A stretch of 40,002 nucleotides of DNA. It comes from Anaerolineae bacterium. GTDB lineage: Bacteria > Chloroflexota > Anaerolineae > B4-G1 > DUEL01. A model generated the notes under the pieces. It worked only from the letters and a program-made list of their open reading frames with translations, was not told where the DNA came from and did no database searches. Below, piece after piece: positions 31,342 to 38,842 of the stretch; position 1 is the first letter of the stretch; each line of letters opens with the position of its first letter. The stretch spans positions 1 through 40,002 of the forward strand of contig JANXAH010000218.1 in NCBI GenBank assembly GCA_025062415.1. The letters run 5' to 3'. Position numbers and translations under genes: made by a program.

Positions 31342-31977
31342 TCACAGGACAAAGAGCAGCATCTGAAGGGGGAGTTTGACCAGGCCAACCAAGAAGCCGA
31401 TCAGGTCCAGCCCCAGGTAGGGGAGCAGGAACAGGAGGCCCAGCAGGACGTAGGGGCTATAGGGGCGGAAGGAGAGCAGGTAATCGCTCCATCGGAGGGG
31501 GAGGATCCCCACCAGGACCTTCTCTCCGTCCAGGGGATAAAAGGGGAGCAGGTTGAAAATGGCCAGGTTCAGGCTGACGTCGGCGATGAGCCACAGGAGC
31601 GTCGCCAGGTTGGTTCCCCCAATGTCCAGACCGGAGAGCAGGCCCAGCCGGAAGGGAATCGCGCAGACCATCGCCAGGAGCAGGTTGGAGGCTGGTCCTG
31701 CAAAGGAAGAGAGGGCCATTCCCGTCCGAGGGTTGGTCCGCATCCGATAGGGATTCACCGGCACAGGCTTGGCCCAGCCGAATCCAGTCAGCAGGATGAG
31801 GATGGCGCCCAGGATATCCAGATGAGCCAGGGGGTTCAAACTCAACCGACCCTCCCAGCGAGGGGTATCGTCTCCCAGCCGGTCCGCCGACCAGGCGTGA
31901 GCCCACTCGTGCAGGGGAAGGCCAACCAGCAAAACGATCAGTCGGGCCAGAAACGTGATCGGGGAAATCCCGAACAT
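31342..31977 (-). CDS. Small site-2 protease family protein (M50)
   Basis: A 211-residue membrane protein. LIVLLVGLPLHEWAHAWSADRLGD includes the zinc motif HEWAH near residue 23, and NLLPFYPLDGEK near 143 the second metal motif (LDG). WEGRLSLNPLAHLDILGAI is the family NP-x-x-H-x-D-P-like region. This minimal S2P family (about 200-220 residues, about six spans) is common in bacteria and of unknown substrate. GGAGG precedes the ATG. It is the second M50 protein in the window and unlike the first lacks an N-terminal domain. It probably shares a transcript with the following dehydrogenase gene. Confidence 0.88.
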   Translation of the reverse strand: MFGISPITFLARLIVLLVGLPLHEWAHAWSADRLGDDTPRWEGRLSLNPLAHLDILGAILILLTGFGWAKPVPVNPYRMRTNPRTGMALSSFAGPASNLLLAMVCAIPFRLGLLSGLDIGGTNLATLLWLIADVSLNLAIFNLLPFYPLDGEKVLVGILPLRWSDYLLSFRPYSPYVLLGLLFLLPYLGLDLIGFLVGLVKLPLQMLLFVL

Positions 31978-32118: not shown

Positions 32119-32772
32119 CTATCCCTTTCCCGCCGCACGGAGAATCTGAGAGACCAACTGGCTCCCCAGGATCGCCAGCCCGTCGGTAGGCATATAGTGA
32201 GGGGCGGAGTCCTCAAAGAGGATGGACGCGCGCGATGGGAACTCCTCATCTCCCACCCAGTAGGCCGCAGCCAGATGGAGGCGAGGGAAAACCGGGAAGG
32301 CGTAAGCGGCGTCCCCCAGGTCCAGCGGCTCCCCTTTCAGCCGAACACAGCCCGCCCGGAAGGCCTCCAGACCGCCTTCCCCCAGTTCCCGCACCAACCG
32401 GTCCTCTGCGTAACCGCGGAAGGCCTGGGCGTAGAACATTCCATCGGGCAAACTGTGAAAGGCAACCCACCGGCGGGAGGGGGTCGCCCCATCGGCGGTG
32501 ACCAAGTAGGTCAGGATGAGGGCCTGGATGAAGGACGAGGGCTCCTCCCCCGTATCTGCCCGCCGGACGACGAAATCCGGCGGGCAGATTCGGTACTCCC
32601 GCCAGAAGAAGGGCAGGCGGAAGGAGCCATCGGGTTCCAGCACACAACCTGCCCAGACTTCCAGTTTGGCAGGTGGAATCTGGCGTAGCCGCGCCCGCGC
32701 CTCGGCCACTCGCGGCGCCAGTTTGTCGTACCACTCCTGAAGACCTCTCGGATGTCCTCCTGGCTGGAGCAT
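32119..32772 (-). CDS. DUF3786 domain protein
   Basis: A 217-residue soluble protein recognised as the DUF3786 family (PF12654) by LTYLVTADGATPSRRWVAFHSLPDGMFY, summarised as the LxYL...RWVAFxxLPDGxxY block near 90-120, and VGDEEFPSRASILFEDSAPHYMPTDGLAIL, the WxGDEEFP-x-x-x-x-ILF block near 172-200. The family occurs in anaerobes, and its role is unknown. It follows a 56-residue gene by six bases, so translation is probably coupled. The ribosome-binding site is weak. A metabolic link to corrinoid or iron proteins has been suggested for relatives, but nothing here shows it. Confidence 0.82.
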   Translation of the reverse strand: MLQPGGHPRGLQEWYDKLAPRVAEARARLRQIPPAKLEVWAGCVLEPDGSFRLPFFWREYRICPPDFVVRRADTGEEPSSFIQALILTYLVTADGATPSRRWVAFHSLPDGMFYAQAFRGYAEDRLVRELGEGGLEAFRAGCVRLKGEPLDLGDAAYAFPVFPRLHLAAAYWVGDEEFPSRASILFEDSAPHYMPTDGLAILGSQLVSQILRAAGKG

Positions 32773-32778
32773 AGGCGG

Positions 32779-32949
32779 TTACTGCGCTCGCAACTGGCCC
32801 ACCAGTTCCAGGAACTCCTCCCACTCCTCTTCAAAGAAGTGGACGGTGACGCTCCCGAACTCCAGGTGATAGGTCACCTCGCCATCGGGTTCTTCCGTTC
32901 GCCAGATGCTGTAGTTGGCGGTTTCAGCCAGGACTTCAATCTCTTCCAT
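32779..32949 (-). CDS. Small acidic protein, 56 aa
   Basis: A short frame not easily seen by length-based searches: ATG 32949 after AAAGGAGAG, stop 32779, 56 residues. It overlaps the end of the upstream fusion gene by 14 bp and ends six bases before DUF3786. The sequence is rich in Glu and aromatic residues (EEIEVLAETANYSIWRTEE; VTVHFFEEEWEEFLELV) and looks like a beta-hairpin followed by a helix. Good ribosome-binding site, position inside a tight gene series and coding-like composition argue that it is real. No function is known; it could be a partner or regulator of DUF3786. Confidence 0.75.
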   Translation of the reverse strand: MEEIEVLAETANYSIWRTEEPDGEVTYHLEFGSVTVHFFEEEWEEFLELVGQLRAQ

Positions 32950-34981
32950 CGTTCTCTCCTTTCATCGGTTTCTCAAAGATGTACAGGGTGTGTTCCCAGT
33001 CGGGGGAGAACCCCGCCGACCGGAGGGCCTCCAGGAGTGCGGGATCCGCCGGAGGACGAATCCGGACTCCTGCGAGGCCCTGCTGGTGGGCCAAGAGGCG
33101 CAACCCCCAGACCAGGGCTTTCAGCCCGTCCGGGGTGCCGTCCAGATAACCGACGTTCAGGCGTTCCGCGCGCGGGTTCGTGGGCAGAATCGCCAGTGCC
33201 GCCAGTTTCTCGTTCACGTCCACACCCCAGACTTCGCCCACGGCCAGATGGGCCGCCAGGCGGCCCTTCGTTAACCTCAACCAGCGCCATCGGACCTCGT
33301 AGAGGCCACCGGCGGCCCGCTGGATGGACGACCCATCTATCAGCGCCCACGCGGCCTCCAGGTCTTCGGGCCCCAGCACGCGCAGGGAAAAGGGCCCTGG
33401 CAAGGGCTCTGCTGCGTAAAGATGAAACTCCGCCACCCGCGAGAACCCGTCCCGTGCGGCGTTACGATGGACAGGCCGATTATAGGAGGCTGTAGCGAAC
33501 CGAAGCACCCCGGCTCCCAACCGTGCTGCGGCCTCCAATTGATGGGCCTGAATCCGACGGGCCAGTCCCAGGCGCCGATAGGCCGGGTGGATCCGGAGCC
33601 CCTCCAGCCACCACTCCTCGTCGGCGATATGGCTCAACTTCGCCAGGCCGACCACCTGCCCGTCCAGTTCCGCCACCGTCAGTTCCCCCTCTGGGTCGGC
33701 AAGCCACTCATCCCAGACCTCCGGGATATAGTCCTCCCCACCCCAGATGTGAGCACAGATGGCCTCCATACTGGCGCGGTCCTCCGGACGAGCAGGGCGA
33801 AGGACCCAGCGGCGGGCGAGACGGCGGCGCCGAACCCAGTCCCAGAGCCGCTGGCCCAGCCAGGGGCGGGGAAGGGGCCGGGCTGGGGCCGGAGGAAAGG
33901 GTTCCTGATCGGTCATCCGACGGTAAATGTACTCTCCCAGAACTCGCAGGGTAGCCACCGTGGGCGCTGCGATCAGGACCCCCAGGATGCCCGCCAGACT
34001 GCCCCCCAGGATGACCGCCACCAGAACGACCAGAGGATGCAGGTTCAGGCTCCGCCCCATAATCCGGGGGATCAGCAGGTTGGCCTCTATTTGCTGGATC
34101 AAAATATACAGGCCCGCCACCAGAACGGCGAACCAGAAATTGCTCAATGGCAGCCAGTAGGATCCCTGGAACAGAGCGATGAGAATCGCCGGGATCGCGG
34201 CGATGGTGGGCCCGATGTTGGGGATGAACTCCAGCACACCCGCCAGCAGGCCCAGGGCCGGCGCATTGGGGAGCCCGATAGCAGTGTTCACCACCGTAGT
34301 GATCACCGCAATGAATAGCCCCAGAAGCAGTTGCCCCCGCAGAAAGGCGTTCCAGACGTCTGTGATAGCATACCGGAGGCGGACAAAGTCGCTCCGGAAG
34401 GACTCCGGCGGGAGACTATCCAGCCAGGCAATAATGCGATCTGCGTCCCGGGTCAGGTAGAAAGCTGCCAGCAGGATGAAGATGACCCAGAACAGGGTAG
34501 AGACGAACCCCATCACAAACGTGACCGTCCCGCTGGCGACGGCAGTCAGGAAGTCCCGCAGCCCCGCCTGGAACTGTCGGTAGACGTCCCGCAGGTCAAT
34601 TTGCCATTCCCATACCTGGATGGGCTGGGCGAAGAAGCGGTCCAGTTGGGCCGCGATCCGGGCGAAGTCCAGATTCAGGGACGTAATAGCCCGTACAATG
34701 GGCGGCACAGCGACCACAGGGGCCAGGGCGATCAGGGCCAGCAAGGTCAGGAAGACCAGCGCCGTTGCCCCCGTCCGGGAGATCCGGAGCCGCTGTTGGA
34801 GGAAATCCACCAGCGGGTCTAAGATAAAGGCGATCAGGAGCGCCAGAATCAGCGGCGGGAGAACGGCACGAAAGCGGTAGAGGACCAGGGCAAACAGAAC
34901 AAACAGGATGGTCCCTACCCACCGCTTCGTCCCCGAATCCCAGCGCTGAACGGGTTCCTTGCCCATTCCGAAAATCCGCAC
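32936..34981 (-). CDS. AI-2E family transporter fused to two GNAT domains
   Basis: A 681-residue protein. Residues about 15-365 are an AI-2E family transporter: ILALLIAFILDPLVDFLQQR, FLRGQLLLGLFIAVIT, the central PNIGPTIAAIPAILIAL and IMGRSLNLHPLVVLVAVILGG, all hallmarks. A basic linker (366-395) leads to a GNAT acetyltransferase, about 396-525, with RPARPEDRASMEAI, VVGLAKL and the acetyl-CoA loop RIHPAYRRLGLARRIQ (R/Q-x-x-G-x-G/A-like, LGLA). A second, more degenerate GNAT-like domain lies about 530-675. The transporter usually ends near residue 350, so the fusion is unusual. GTG 34981 lies three bases after the coiled-coil gene stop; ATG 34966 is an alternative. Confidence 0.9.
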   Translation of the reverse strand: MRIFGMGKEPVQRWDSGTKRWVGTILFVLFALVLYRFRAVLPPLILALLIAFILDPLVDFLQQRLRISRTGATALVFLTLLALIALAPVVAVPPIVRAITSLNLDFARIAAQLDRFFAQPIQVWEWQIDLRDVYRQFQAGLRDFLTAVASGTVTFVMGFVSTLFWVIFILLAAFYLTRDADRIIAWLDSLPPESFRSDFVRLRYAITDVWNAFLRGQLLLGLFIAVITTVVNTAIGLPNAPALGLLAGVLEFIPNIGPTIAAIPAILIALFQGSYWLPLSNFWFAVLVAGLYILIQQIEANLLIPRIMGRSLNLHPLVVLVAVILGGSLAGILGVLIAAPTVATLRVLGEYIYRRMTDQEPFPPAPARPLPRPWLGQRLWDWVRRRRLARRWVLRPARPEDRASMEAICAHIWGGEDYIPEVWDEWLADPEGELTVAELDGQVVGLAKLSHIADEEWWLEGLRIHPAYRRLGLARRIQAHQLEAAARLGAGVLRFATASYNRPVHRNAARDGFSRVAEFHLYAAEPLPGPFSLRVLGPEDLEAAWALIDGSSIQRAAGGLYEVRWRWLRLTKGRLAAHLAVGEVWGVDVNEKLAALAILPTNPRAERLNVGYLDGTPDGLKALVWGLRLLAHQQGLAGVRIRPPADPALLEALRSAGFSPDWEHTLYIFEKPMKGENDGRD

Positions 34982-34984
34982 CCC

Positions 34985-35626
34985 CTACCGAATGAGGCTC
35001 AGAGTCAGTTGGGCGATGAAAAGGGCGGAGATCAACCCGCCGAAAAATTTCACCCAGAAATCGGTACGGGCCAGGCGATGCTCCAGAGCGGTCAGTCGGG
35101 CATCCATCAGTTTTTCCAGGTTTGAGAGGTCTTGTTTGAATTCCGCCCGCAGGCCTTCGTACCTCTCCTGCATCTCCGCCCGCAGGCCCTTGATGCTTTC
35201 CTGTATCTCTGCCCGCAGGCCTTCGTACCTCTCTTGCATCTCCGCCCGCAGGCCTATGATGCTTTCTCGCATCTCTGACCGCAGGCTTTCGTACCTCTCT
35301 TGCATCTCCGCCCGGAGGGCTTCTACCTTCTCTCCGAGCCCATCTACCTTTTCCTCCAGTCTTTCAACCCTCTCTCCGAGCCTACCCACCTTTTCTTCCA
35401 GTCTTTCAACTCTCCCTCCGAGTTCTTCCACTTTTGTGCTCAGGTGATCCACGCGCTCCTCCAGGCGGATAATCACGCCTGCCGGAGAGCGGCGAAGGGC
35501 CTCCACATCCAGCAGGTACTCCCGGGGATAGACAAAAAGACGCTCCTCCTCTATCACCTGGCGAATCAGATCCCGGAGACCCTCTATCTGGTCCGCCCGT
35601 ACAGTTGTGGTTTCCGGGAGTGGCAT
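34985..35626 (-). CDS. Tail-anchored coiled-coil protein with 22-residue repeats
   Basis: A 213-residue protein. After an N-terminal domain (1-55, with VIEEERLFVYPREYLLDVEAL), a long coiled coil (about 55-180) runs with heptads such as LEEKVGRLGERVERLEEKVDGL. It includes repeated units around LRAEMQERYEGLRAEIQESIKG, visible at DNA level as CGCAGGCCTTCGTACCTCTC copies near 35151-35260. Residues about 188-210 form a single membrane span (FFGGLISALFIAQLTLSL). This is a tail-anchored, mainly cytoplasmic rod. Repeat copies may vary between strains. GAGGAGG lies before the ATG. It adjoins the AI-2E fusion gene but a link in function is unknown. Confidence 0.85.
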   Translation of the reverse strand: MPLPETTTVRADQIEGLRDLIRQVIEEERLFVYPREYLLDVEALRRSPAGVIIRLEERVDHLSTKVEELGGRVERLEEKVGRLGERVERLEEKVDGLGEKVEALRAEMQERYESLRSEMRESIIGLRAEMQERYEGLRAEIQESIKGLRAEMQERYEGLRAEFKQDLSNLEKLMDARLTALEHRLARTDFWVKFFGGLISALFIAQLTLSLIR

Positions 35627-35691: not shown

Positions 35692-36207
35692 CTATCGCAC
35701 CAGTCCTACCTCGCTCAGCGGCCAGTAGATAAAAACAGCCCGCCCAACGATGTTTTGGACGGGGACAGGTCCGAAGGAGCGGGAATCGTTGGAATGGCCC
35801 CGGTTATCCCCCAGGACAAAGACATAGCCCTCCGGGACAGGAGTGGGAGGGTAATCTGGGCCGCCCCATCGGACCGCCCAGGACTCCGCCAGCGGGATGC
35901 CATCTATCAGAATCTGCCCGTCCTGAATGGCGACAGTCTCCCCGCCCAGCGCAACGACCCGCTTGATAAGTCGGTCTGGATTCCCCGGCACAGTCAGGAC
36001 CACGATGTCGCCTCGGTGGGGGCCGCCGAAAAGGCGGTAGGAGAGTTTCTCCACGATGACCCGCTGGTTATCGTGAAGGGTGGGCTCCATGCTCTGGCCG
36101 CGCACCACCGTCGCCTGAGCCAGGAAGGTATTGATGAACAACGCCAACAAAATAGCGGGGAGGACGGTTTCCAGAAATTCCCGAAGGACACGCACCAGGA
36201 GACGCAT
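35692..36207 (-). CDS. lepB: Signal peptidase I
   Basis: A 171-residue type I signal peptidase, short as in Gram-positive-like forms. An N-terminal span (about 12-31) is followed by VVRGQSMEPTL with catalytic Ser39, GDIVVL, then DRLIKRVVALGGE with catalytic Lys82 and GYVFVLGDNRGHSNDSRSFGPV with the GDN-x-x-x-S-x-DSR box. It cleaves signal peptides at the outer side of the membrane. It follows pnp with a hairpin between, and precedes the coiled-coil gene by 65 bp. A single lepB is seen in the window; others may exist. Confidence 0.95.
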   Translation of the reverse strand: MRLLVRVLREFLETVLPAILLALFINTFLAQATVVRGQSMEPTLHDNQRVIVEKLSYRLFGGPHRGDIVVLTVPGNPDRLIKRVVALGGETVAIQDGQILIDGIPLAESWAVRWGGPDYPPTPVPEGYVFVLGDNRGHSNDSRSFGPVPVQNIVGRAVFIYWPLSEVGLVR

Positions 36208-36285: not shown

Positions 36286-38442
36286 CTACCGGCGACGCGC
36301 GGGCTTCTTCGCCCCACCATTGCGAGTGGGGCCCCGGTCGTAGAGCCGGGCCTCCTCTATCGTCCAGCCCTCCAGCACGGCCCGCCGGGAGAGGCGAATC
36401 TTCCCGTCCGGATCAATATCCGTCACCATCACCAGAATCTCGTCGCCGATCTCCACCGCCTCCCGCGGGCTCTTGATGGGCTGGTCGGAGAGTTGGGAAA
36501 CGTGCACCATCCCATCAGTTCCGGGGGCCAGTTCCACAAAGACACCGAAATCGGTGATCCGAACCACCCGTCCTGTATAAACCTTTCCGACCTCCGGGAC
36601 CTCCGTCAGGCGACGGATAATCTCCTCAGCCCGACAGGCTCCCTCCCGGTCCGTGGATGCAATGTAGATGGTCCCGTCGTCCTCAATATCCACCCGGACG
36701 TTGCATTCCTCCTGGATGGCGCGGACCGTTTTGCCGCCGGTCCCAATGACCGCGCCCAGTTTGTCCGGGTCCACATGTAGGATGAGCATCCGCGGGGCAT
36801 AGGGAGAGAGGTCGGGGCGGGGAGCCGGGATGGTCGCCCGCAGGATATCCAGAATCTGCAGGCGGGCCTGTCTGGCCTGCTCCAGCGCTTCGGCCAGAAT
36901 CTGGTCGGAGATGCCCTTGATTTTGATGTCCATCTGAAGGGCGGTGATGCCCTTCTGGGTCCCGGCAACCTTGAAGTCCATATCGCCCAGGTGGTCCTCC
37001 ATCCCCAGAATGTCGGTGAGGATGCGGTAGCGCTCCCCTTCCATCACCAACCCCATCGCGATGCCCGCGACGTGGGTCCGGATGGGTACCCCAGCGTCCA
37101 TCAACGCCAGCGTGGACCCGCAGACGGAGGCCATAGAGGTGGAACCGTTGGAGGAAAGGACCTCACTGACGACACGGATGGTATACGGGAACTCGTCCTC
37201 TGGCGGAATGACCGGGAGGAGCGCCCGCTCGGCCAGCGCACCGTGACCAATCTCCCGCCGCCCTGGGCCCCGCAGAGGCCGGGTCTCCCCGGTGGAAAAC
37301 GGCGGGAAGTTGTAGTGGTGCATGTAGCGCTTGGTCTCCTCCGGAGAAAGGTCGTCCAGCAATTGCTCCTCTTTAGGGGTCCCCAGCGTCGCCACGGAGA
37401 GGACCTGGGTCTCTCCACGGGTGAAGAGGCCGGAGCCGTGGGTCCGGGGGAGCAGGCCCACCTGGGCCGAGATGGGGCGGATGGTGTAGGGGTCCCGCCC
37501 GTCCACCCGGATACCTTCGTCCAGGATGCGCCGCCGCACGATCTCTTTTGTCACCTCTTCCAGGGCCTGCTGGAGCAGGAGCGGGTCTACGCTCTCGCCA
37601 AACTGGGCTTTCAGTTCAGCCAGGAGTGCGTTGACGGCGGCATTACGGGAGGCCTTGTCCGGCTGATCATAGAGTGCGGAGAAAAGCCGGGCGCCGACGG
37701 TATCCCGGACCTGGGCGATCAGTTCTTCGGGGACGATATGGGGAGTATAAGCCCGCTTGGGCTTGCCCACCCTCTGGCGCATCTCCTCCTGGATGGCAAT
37801 AACCTCCTGGATAGCCTGCTGGCCCAGGCGAAGCGCCTCCAGGATGACCGCTTCGGGCACCTCGTTGGCGCCAGCCTCCACCATCAGGAGCGCGTCGGCA
37901 GTCCCGGCGACGCGCAGGTCCAGGAGACTGTGCTCCATCTCCGGGATAGTGGGGTTGACGACCAGTTGCCCGTCAATATAGCCGATGCGGGCAGCACCCA
38001 CTGGCCCTCCGAAGGGGATGTCGGAAATGGTTAAAGCGGCAGACGCCGCGATAATGGAGAGGATGTCGGACTGGTGCCGGTCATCCTGGGAGAGGGGCGT
38101 GACGATAATCTGGACCTCGTGCCGCAGGTCCTTAGGAAAGAGAGGGCGAAGGGGCCGGTCCGTCAGGCGGGCAATGAGGATGGCACTCTCCGGAGGCCGT
38201 CCCTCCCGGCGCTGGAAGGAACCGGGGATACGGCCTGCGGCGTACATTCGTTCCTCAAAGTCCACTGTCAGGGGGAAGAAATCCACATCGGCCCGCTCCT
38301 CCGCGGACATCGTTGCGGTGGCGAGGAGAACGGTGTCTCCGCAGCGGATAGTCACAGCACCCCCGGCCTGAAGAGCCAGGTGACCGGTCTCCAGAGTGAT
38401 GAGATGTTCGCCCAATCGGGCGGTGAACGTGTAACTTTCCAT
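36286..38442 (-). CDS. pnp: Polynucleotide phosphorylase
   Basis: A 718-residue 3'-5' phosphorolytic RNA exonuclease, normal length. It has two RNase PH domains: residues 1-250 with [13 protein letters not shown] and FQRREGRP, and about 310-540 with [37 protein letters not shown] (named as a region) and [18 protein letters not shown] with the catalytic acids. A KH domain (about 555-615, [14 protein letters not shown]) and an S1 domain (about 620-690, [15 protein letters not shown]) follow. It degrades and processes mRNA. It follows rpsO, with a long hairpin in the leader that resembles the PNPase autocontrol site. Start ATG has AGGAGGTAGGT upstream. Confidence 0.97.
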
Positions 38443-38572: not shown

Positions 38573-38842
38573 CTACTTGCGCAGCCCGAGCCTCCGAACG
38601 ATTTCTTTGTAGCGTTCGGGGTTGGTCCGGCTCAGATACACCAGGTGCCGCCGTCGCTTGCCCACCATCCGGAGCAGCCCACGGCGGGAATGCTCGTCGT
38701 GTTTATGGACCTTCAGGTGCTCGGTCAGCAAGTTAATCCGATGGGTGAGGAGGGCAATCTGCACCTCCGGGGAGCCGGTATCCTCCGGCGAACGCCCGTA
38801 TTCCCGGATAATCTGCTGCTTCTGGGCTTTGGTCAACGGCAT
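38573..38842 (-). CDS. rpsO: 30S ribosomal protein S15
   Basis: An 89-residue protein, exact usual length. It opens [19 protein letters not shown], then [43 protein letters not shown] and [21 protein letters not shown], cited as order of blocks. S15 binds 16S rRNA. In many bacteria it also represses its own mRNA. AGGAGG is upstream, and a promoter-like TTGCTT-16-TAAAAT lies 66 bp before the start. It begins the rpsO-pnp pair of the long minus-strand series. Confidence 0.97.

Follow-up and report, generated by a model that had tools for sequence, protein, structure and literature searches.

An AI-2E transporter joined to a predicted HisAT-type double-GNAT enzyme in Anaerolineae, and its possible role in coupled acetylation and transport

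Why should a membrane transporter carry an acetyltransferase within the same polypeptide? This question is raised by a gene of an Anaerolineae bacterium, located in a window of 40,002 nucleotides (the whole stretch of DNA analysed, from contig JANXAH010000218.1). One stop-free frame on the minus strand (32936..34981) runs for 681 amino acids from a GTG codon at 34981. The original prediction described a continuous frame of this length, free of frameshifts, in which an AI-2E transporter is joined to a GNAT acetyltransferase. Both points were borne out, as the frame is open from 34981 to 32936 and both Pfam domains are called within it. A literature search for AI-2E-acetyltransferase fusions found no description of one.

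The fusion gene and its transporter domain

The homologue alignments start at residue 6 of the fusion protein, and the sequence AGGGGG lies a short distance 5′ of the ATG codon at that residue (34964-34966). On these two grounds, the true start of the gene is probably this ATG, at position 34966, which would give a protein of 676 amino acids. No RNA element near the locus reached its gathering score.

The N-terminal part is a TqsA-like AI-2E transporter domain (residues 25-348; 33938..34909, minus strand), as assigned through Pfam, phmmer and Foldseek. The Pfam family AI-2E_transport (PF01594) matches residues 25-348 with an E-value of 2.6e-53 and a score of 181.7 bits against a cut-off of 34.3. 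The phmmer comparison of the transporter with the TqsA structure 7nb6 gave an E-value of 3.2e-12, and the Foldseek comparison of the model with the same structure gave 9.8e-9 (TMt 0.68, 25% identity). TqsA 7nb6 was the only solved relative of the domain in the structure searches. TqsA, the protein of this structure, is described as a pentamer. The full-length domain is shared with the AI-2E transporters in general (E. coli TqsA, the UPF0118 Na+(Li+)/H+ antiporter and YtvI), whereas the C-terminal enzyme is additional in the fusion. The domain scores below the cut-offs of both the YtvI and the CxpE models of NCBIfam. AI-2E transporters are common, being found in 13 of the 14 control genomes.

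Members of the AI-2E group vary in function and include an AI-2 exporter and a Na+/H+ antiporter (PMC7221264). The signature of the Na+(Li+)/H+ antiporters consists of D251 in the motif DFxPI and of R292, R293 and E296 in the motif IRRTVEPKVMG (PMC7221264). The fusion protein reads EFIPNIG and EANLLIPRIMG in these places, with the aspartate replaced by glutamate, the two arginines by Ala-Asn and E296 by isoleucine. An antiporter reading of the transporter was rejected, since the signature residues are missing. The export of AI-2 was likewise rejected. The search for LuxS gave no match in any of the 15 genomes tested and the expected matches in the control genomes, making AI-2 an unlikely cargo of the fused transporter.

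Transporter and acetyltransferase are connected by a linker (residues 357-390; 33812..33913, minus strand), delimited through charge and sequence comparison across the fusions and the AlphaFold2 secondary structure. It had been described from the outset as short and basic, which agrees with a net charge of +9 over residues 346-400 and a predicted helix at residues 375-389. An in-frame start codon was looked for within residues 357-404 and was absent. No separate GNAT product is therefore evident, and a GNAT protein started from inside the fusion gene was rejected. The AlphaFold2 model, built on a 74-row alignment, has a mean pLDDT of 90.6, with residue blocks within 391-670 at 90-98; the two GNAT domains are both modelled with confidence.

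The C-terminal half as a HisAT-type double GNAT

The first GNAT domain (residues 391-530; 33392..33811, minus strand) is identified by Pfam and by its conservation within the family and in 15 fusions. Acetyltransf_1 (PF00583) matches residues 415-513 with an E-value of 6.1e-13. The domain contains the acetyl-CoA motif R469-x-x-G472-x-A474, the beta-bulge G461-L462, and W413 and Y418 as putative substrate residues. In the nearest relatives within the genus, the CoA motif ends in serine rather than alanine or glycine. The second GNAT domain (residues 531-676; 32954..33391, minus strand) received no Pfam GNAT call and was delimited from AlphaFold2 models, the alignment and the published description of HisAT. 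It lacks the CoA motif and contains a beta-hairpin with an invariant tryptophan, W565, the counterpart of Trp246 of HisAT. The AlphaFold2 models show two consecutive GNAT folds (pLDDT 90.6 and 93.6), with RxxGxA confined to the first.

In the published description of the human histidine acetyltransferase HisAT (NAT16), the protein is a double GNAT and acetyl-CoA is bound by its first domain alone (PMC12219266). The second domain has lost the CoA residues and the bulge and supplies Trp246 from a beta-hairpin (PMC12219266). The substrate histidine is stacked between Tyr74 and Trp246, and its carboxylate contacts Tyr74, Tyr79 and the amide of Gly123 (PMC12219266). A Chloroflexi protein was already counted in the HisAT-type group (PMC12219266), so the presence of such an enzyme in this phylum was known. 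The authors also warned that HisAT-type likeness is no proof of HisAT activity (PMC12219266).

Sequence and structure searches both lead to this group, which supplies the best matches to the GNAT part of the fusion. A PDB profile search with a GNAT profile of 28 relatives gave Thermoplasma Ta0821 as the best match (4.7e-19), followed by human NAT16/HisAT (4.4e-14). Foldseek placed the human HisAT structures 9emp, 9en3 and 9emd at ranks 1-3 for the whole model and for the GNAT part alike, the GNAT part alone giving a TM-score of about 0.65 against them. Two GNAT folds are common to the fusion and to the HisAT/NAT16-type proteins (human NAT16, 9emo/9emp/9en3/9emd; archaeal Ta0821, 3c26), and as in the fusion, HisAT has the acetyl-CoA motif and the beta-bulge in the first GNAT only. 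Counterparts of Tyr79, Gly123, Leu124 and Trp246 are kept in the fusion. The alignment pairs Tyr74 with W413, Tyr79 with Y418, Gly123 with G461 and Trp246 with W565. The stretch over Trp246 is weak when taken alone, but the placement of W565 is backed by the AlphaFold2 model and by invariance. The residue lies exactly between the predicted strands 560-563 and 566-569, and it is unchanged in 28 family rows and 15 fusions. None of the five residues Y418, G461, R463, T497 and W565 varies among the 15 fusions compared. W413 is aromatic and lacks the hydroxyl of Tyr74; Y418 is invariant. Compared with human HisAT, the fusion carries a transporter, has tryptophan in place of Tyr74 and is about 20% identical, and the likeness is one of sequence and model.

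On this evidence, the two GNATs together are predicted to be a single double-GNAT enzyme of the HisAT/NAT16 type. This changes part of the original prediction, which had called one GNAT clear and the other degenerate. The first domain does possess its CoA motif, while the supposedly degenerate second domain is what a HisAT-type enzyme normally has as its second half, complete with W565. Decay of the second GNAT was rejected in view of purifying selection and of this invariant tryptophan. The tandem-GNAT mycothiol synthase MshD was also considered, and its NCBIfam equivalog model gave 13.9 bits, far from the cut-off of 163.1.

Distribution and chromosomal address

Confinement to a single assembly had been raised as a point that would count against the fusion, and instead whole fusions were found in many other genomes. 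The whole fusion is present, at 74-79% identity, on contigs of an uncultured Anaerolineae, of Anaerolineae SKYB88 and of a Thermoflexales MAG, and the frames are intact in L002, L003 and L004. A further 14 fused genes come from genera of the home family (f1), from three genomes of the sister family (f2) and from G317. Within the genus, five of the six other genomes have the whole fusion, and in the sixth (G003) the contig ends early. Five further f1 genomes from four other genera carry it, as do the three f2 genomes; a further f1 draft (G009) gave no match to the fusion. Every part of the fusion is under purifying selection, with pairwise omega values of 0.09-0.28 for the transporter and for each of the two GNATs and of 0.10-0.40 for the short linker. 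Although the genome is a draft of 264 contigs, an assembly or sequencing artefact or a decaying pseudogene is refuted, because the same architecture is conserved at 58-79% identity with the same flanking genes in many independent assemblies and selection acts on every segment.

The two proteins also occur as neighbours. In the f2 genomes G019 and G025, the double GNAT is a free-standing gene that comes after the AI-2E frame and overlaps it. The split genes overlap by 4 bases in families f36 and f50, and are 6 bases apart in f60 and 48 bases apart in f58. In G317, of the distant family f59, AI-2E and GNAT are fused once more; the GNAT part branches separately in the GNAT tree, and this fusion is an independent one. 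The AU test rejected the placement of all fused transporters of f1 and f2 in a single clade (p 0.0016), indicating that fusion or fission took place more than once. In these two families, either fusion was repeated, or it happened once and was followed by fission and loss among the f2 genomes. Over most of the phylum the double GNAT stands alone as its own gene, and this wide occurrence suggests that the free-standing form is the older one. In G437 (C52 14300-15167, plus strand), a double-GNAT gene is present in two overlapping frames, possibly through a frameshift.

The fusion gene is part of a run on the minus strand in the order rpsO, pnp, lepB, coiled-coil protein, fusion, small acidic ORF, DUF3786 and M50 protease. 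The first ORF (38573..38842) we take by eye to encode ribosomal protein S15 (rpsO). It lies upstream of pnp (36286..38442), the polynucleotide phosphorylase gene, which was named by inspection and serves as the anchor of the address. Signal peptidase I (lepB; 35692..36207) also belongs to the address, as assigned by synteny and Pfam PF10502 (5.6e-46). The gene immediately upstream of the fusion (34985..35626) encodes a coiled-coil protein that is internally repetitive and hydrophobic at its C-terminal end. It contains 33-base repeats, and its length varies among relatives (285 amino acids in L002); no match was found at the equivalent place in G002. Downstream, a small acidic ORF of 56 amino acids (32779..32949) overlaps the 3′ end of the fusion. 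In G021 (L071 970-2484, minus strand), which has no GNAT here, a similar sequence forms the in-frame tail of the AI-2E protein. The run continues with a DUF3786 protein (32119..32772; Pfam PF12654, 3.7e-45), conserved by synteny as a neighbour in f1 and several f2 genomes, and with a conserved M50 site-2-protease-like protein (31342..31977; Pfam PF02163 and synteny). In G007, G008 and G012, a second AI-2E gene of a different clade lies directly upstream of the fusion with a 4-base overlap (L070 7841-9037, minus strand; L174 7141-8334, minus strand; L173 1-1089, plus strand).

In 44 genomes, an AI-2E gene follows pnp in the same orientation, at a distance of no more than 4.5 kb. Its partner is the double GNAT in 14 of them, fused in 10 cases and adjacent in 4; in 17 it is a HAD hydrolase, fused in 14 and adjacent in 3; the remaining 13 have neither. 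All of these genomes were reached by way of AI-2E or GNAT similarity to the query, so the figures are counts of a biased sample and not frequencies. In the f2 genomes, pnp is not beside the transporter, yet the transporter is orthologous by tree. The AI-2E-HAD fusions of other Anaerolineae (e.g., L085, L081 and L088) have the same pnp-lepB-AI-2E address and the same domain order, the enzyme being a HAD-IA hydrolase (Pfam HAD_2, 6.6e-34) that resembles PpaX and phosphoglycolate phosphatase. A more specific name was rejected, as the partner scores below every NCBIfam equivalog cut-off. Sequence inspection indicates that the HAD partners keep the DxDGT, KP and GDT motifs. Most genomes of the GNAT-fusion families have a HAD relative elsewhere, at 43-48% identity at best (e.g., C141 of G000), and a free double GNAT is present in the HAD-fusion genomes of f15 and f30.

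Inspection of the downstream ORFs in families without GNAT or HAD revealed no recurrent third enzyme partner. In one such pnp-AI-2E place (G194, L162 4783-5292, plus strand), the next gene follows after 20 bases and appears by eye to encode an acyl-CoA thioesterase-like protein. The AI-2E frame of G191 (L157 4964-6815, plus strand) is broken in two and followed by a HAD gene; it is probably a frameshift or a pseudogene of an AI-2E-HAD pair. A 711-amino-acid frame in G076 (C1; L156 3633-5768, plus strand) joins AI-2E to Peptidase_M23 (Pfam, 4.9e-28), and may be an assembly join since the stretch contains unresolved bases.

Proposed function and alternative explanations

The protein is a genuine fusion. 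With moderate confidence, it is proposed to carry out the cytosolic acetylation of a small amino compound, coupled to transport by the AI-2E domain. The first GNAT would bind acetyl-CoA on the cytosolic side, with an amino-acid-like substrate held between the two GNATs at W413, Y418, G461 and W565. The amino group of the substrate would then be acetylated, and the attached transporter would pass the product across the membrane. Acetylation and transport would thus be coupled in one complex, pentameric and with five enzymes if the assembly of TqsA is kept. In the related lineages, a HAD hydrolase on the same transporter may do the equivalent job. That transport could be coupled to acetylation had been put forward in the original prediction, and it is the best-supported reading given the repeated adjacency and the repeated fusion or splitting; the substrate might be histidine, arginine or some other amine, and its movement would be export and not uptake.

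Two points support a cytosolic position of the GNATs, namely the basic linker, in line with the positive-inside rule, and their requirement for acetyl-CoA. For one AI-2E member, however, a study with PhoA placed the C-terminus outside the cytoplasm (PMC7221264), which, if true here, would be incompatible with the use of acetyl-CoA.

The closest working analogue is MprF, a flippase whose C-terminal tandem-GNAT enzyme, on the cytosolic side, produces the molecule to be translocated (PMC8131360). Both proteins combine a membrane translocator with C-terminal tandem GNATs. However, the transporter of MprF is from an unrelated family, and its synthase uses aminoacyl-tRNA and belongs to another Pfam family. 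The DUF2156/LPG-synthase domain of the MprF type had no match in the fusion protein at E-values up to 1.

The fusion might also be a matter of tethering or co-expression only, with co-translated neighbours joined by the loss of a stop codon and acting on unrelated molecules. The unfused genes overlap by 4 or by tens of bases, so that little would be needed to join them, the locus is embedded in the housekeeping run rpsO-pnp-lepB, and 13 genomes have the transporter at this address with neither GNAT nor HAD. This reading is nevertheless rather unlikely, as the same two families are adjacent in f36, f50, f58, f59 and f60 besides f1 and f2, more than one fusion or fission has occurred, and the alternation is with one specific enzyme family and not with random neighbours. 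The coupling of acetylation to transport is favoured because the two proteins are encoded by adjacent genes in unrelated families and have been fused or split more than once. The free-standing state of the double GNAT in most of the phylum counts against this coupling, as the enzyme is there independent of the transporter. Further points against the proposed function are the varied roles of AI-2E members, the tryptophan in place of Tyr74 and the serine that closes the CoA motif in the nearest relatives within the genus.

It is also conceivable, though unlikely, that the GNAT part has a sensory or regulatory role. On binding acetyl-CoA or an amino acid in the cytosol it would gate the transporter, and catalysis would be of minor importance or missing. 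Fusion enforces a strict one-to-one stoichiometry, the alternating HAD partner could likewise bind a ligand, and the serine at the end of the CoA motif in members of the genus fits such a role. On the other hand, the substrate and beta-bulge residues of HisAT are retained, the HAD partners retain their motifs by inspection, and the free-standing relatives resemble ordinary enzymes.

Transport might also run in the opposite direction, as a vectorial uptake: an amino compound would enter through the transporter and be trapped once the fused enzyme had acetylated it. The anatomy would be equivalent, and the transport direction of AI-2E proteins is known for few members only. Such uptake is nonetheless improbable, as the members with a described cargo in the literature consulted are exporters, and we know of no AI-2E member that acts as an importer.

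Returning to acetylation coupled to export, the transported molecule is known for few members of the AI-2E family, widespread as it is. The fused GNAT and the alternative HAD narrow the cargo to one compound open both to acetylation at an amine and to dephosphorylation, or else to two compounds related to each other. The prokaryotic HisAT-type enzymes, which the 2025 HisAT paper presents through their structures only, gain a physiological setting beside a membrane transporter. As a kind, the transporter-enzyme fusion is already known from MprF; the exchange of enzymes at one address is the most interesting part. It is tentatively proposed that an ancient transporter platform exists at the pnp-(lepB)-AI-2E locus of Anaerolineae, on which an exchangeable cytosolic enzyme chemically marks a common intracellular metabolite for transport. 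If true, this platform would be a modify-and-export system that has not been described previously, and would offer a route to the natural substrates of the AI-2E family.
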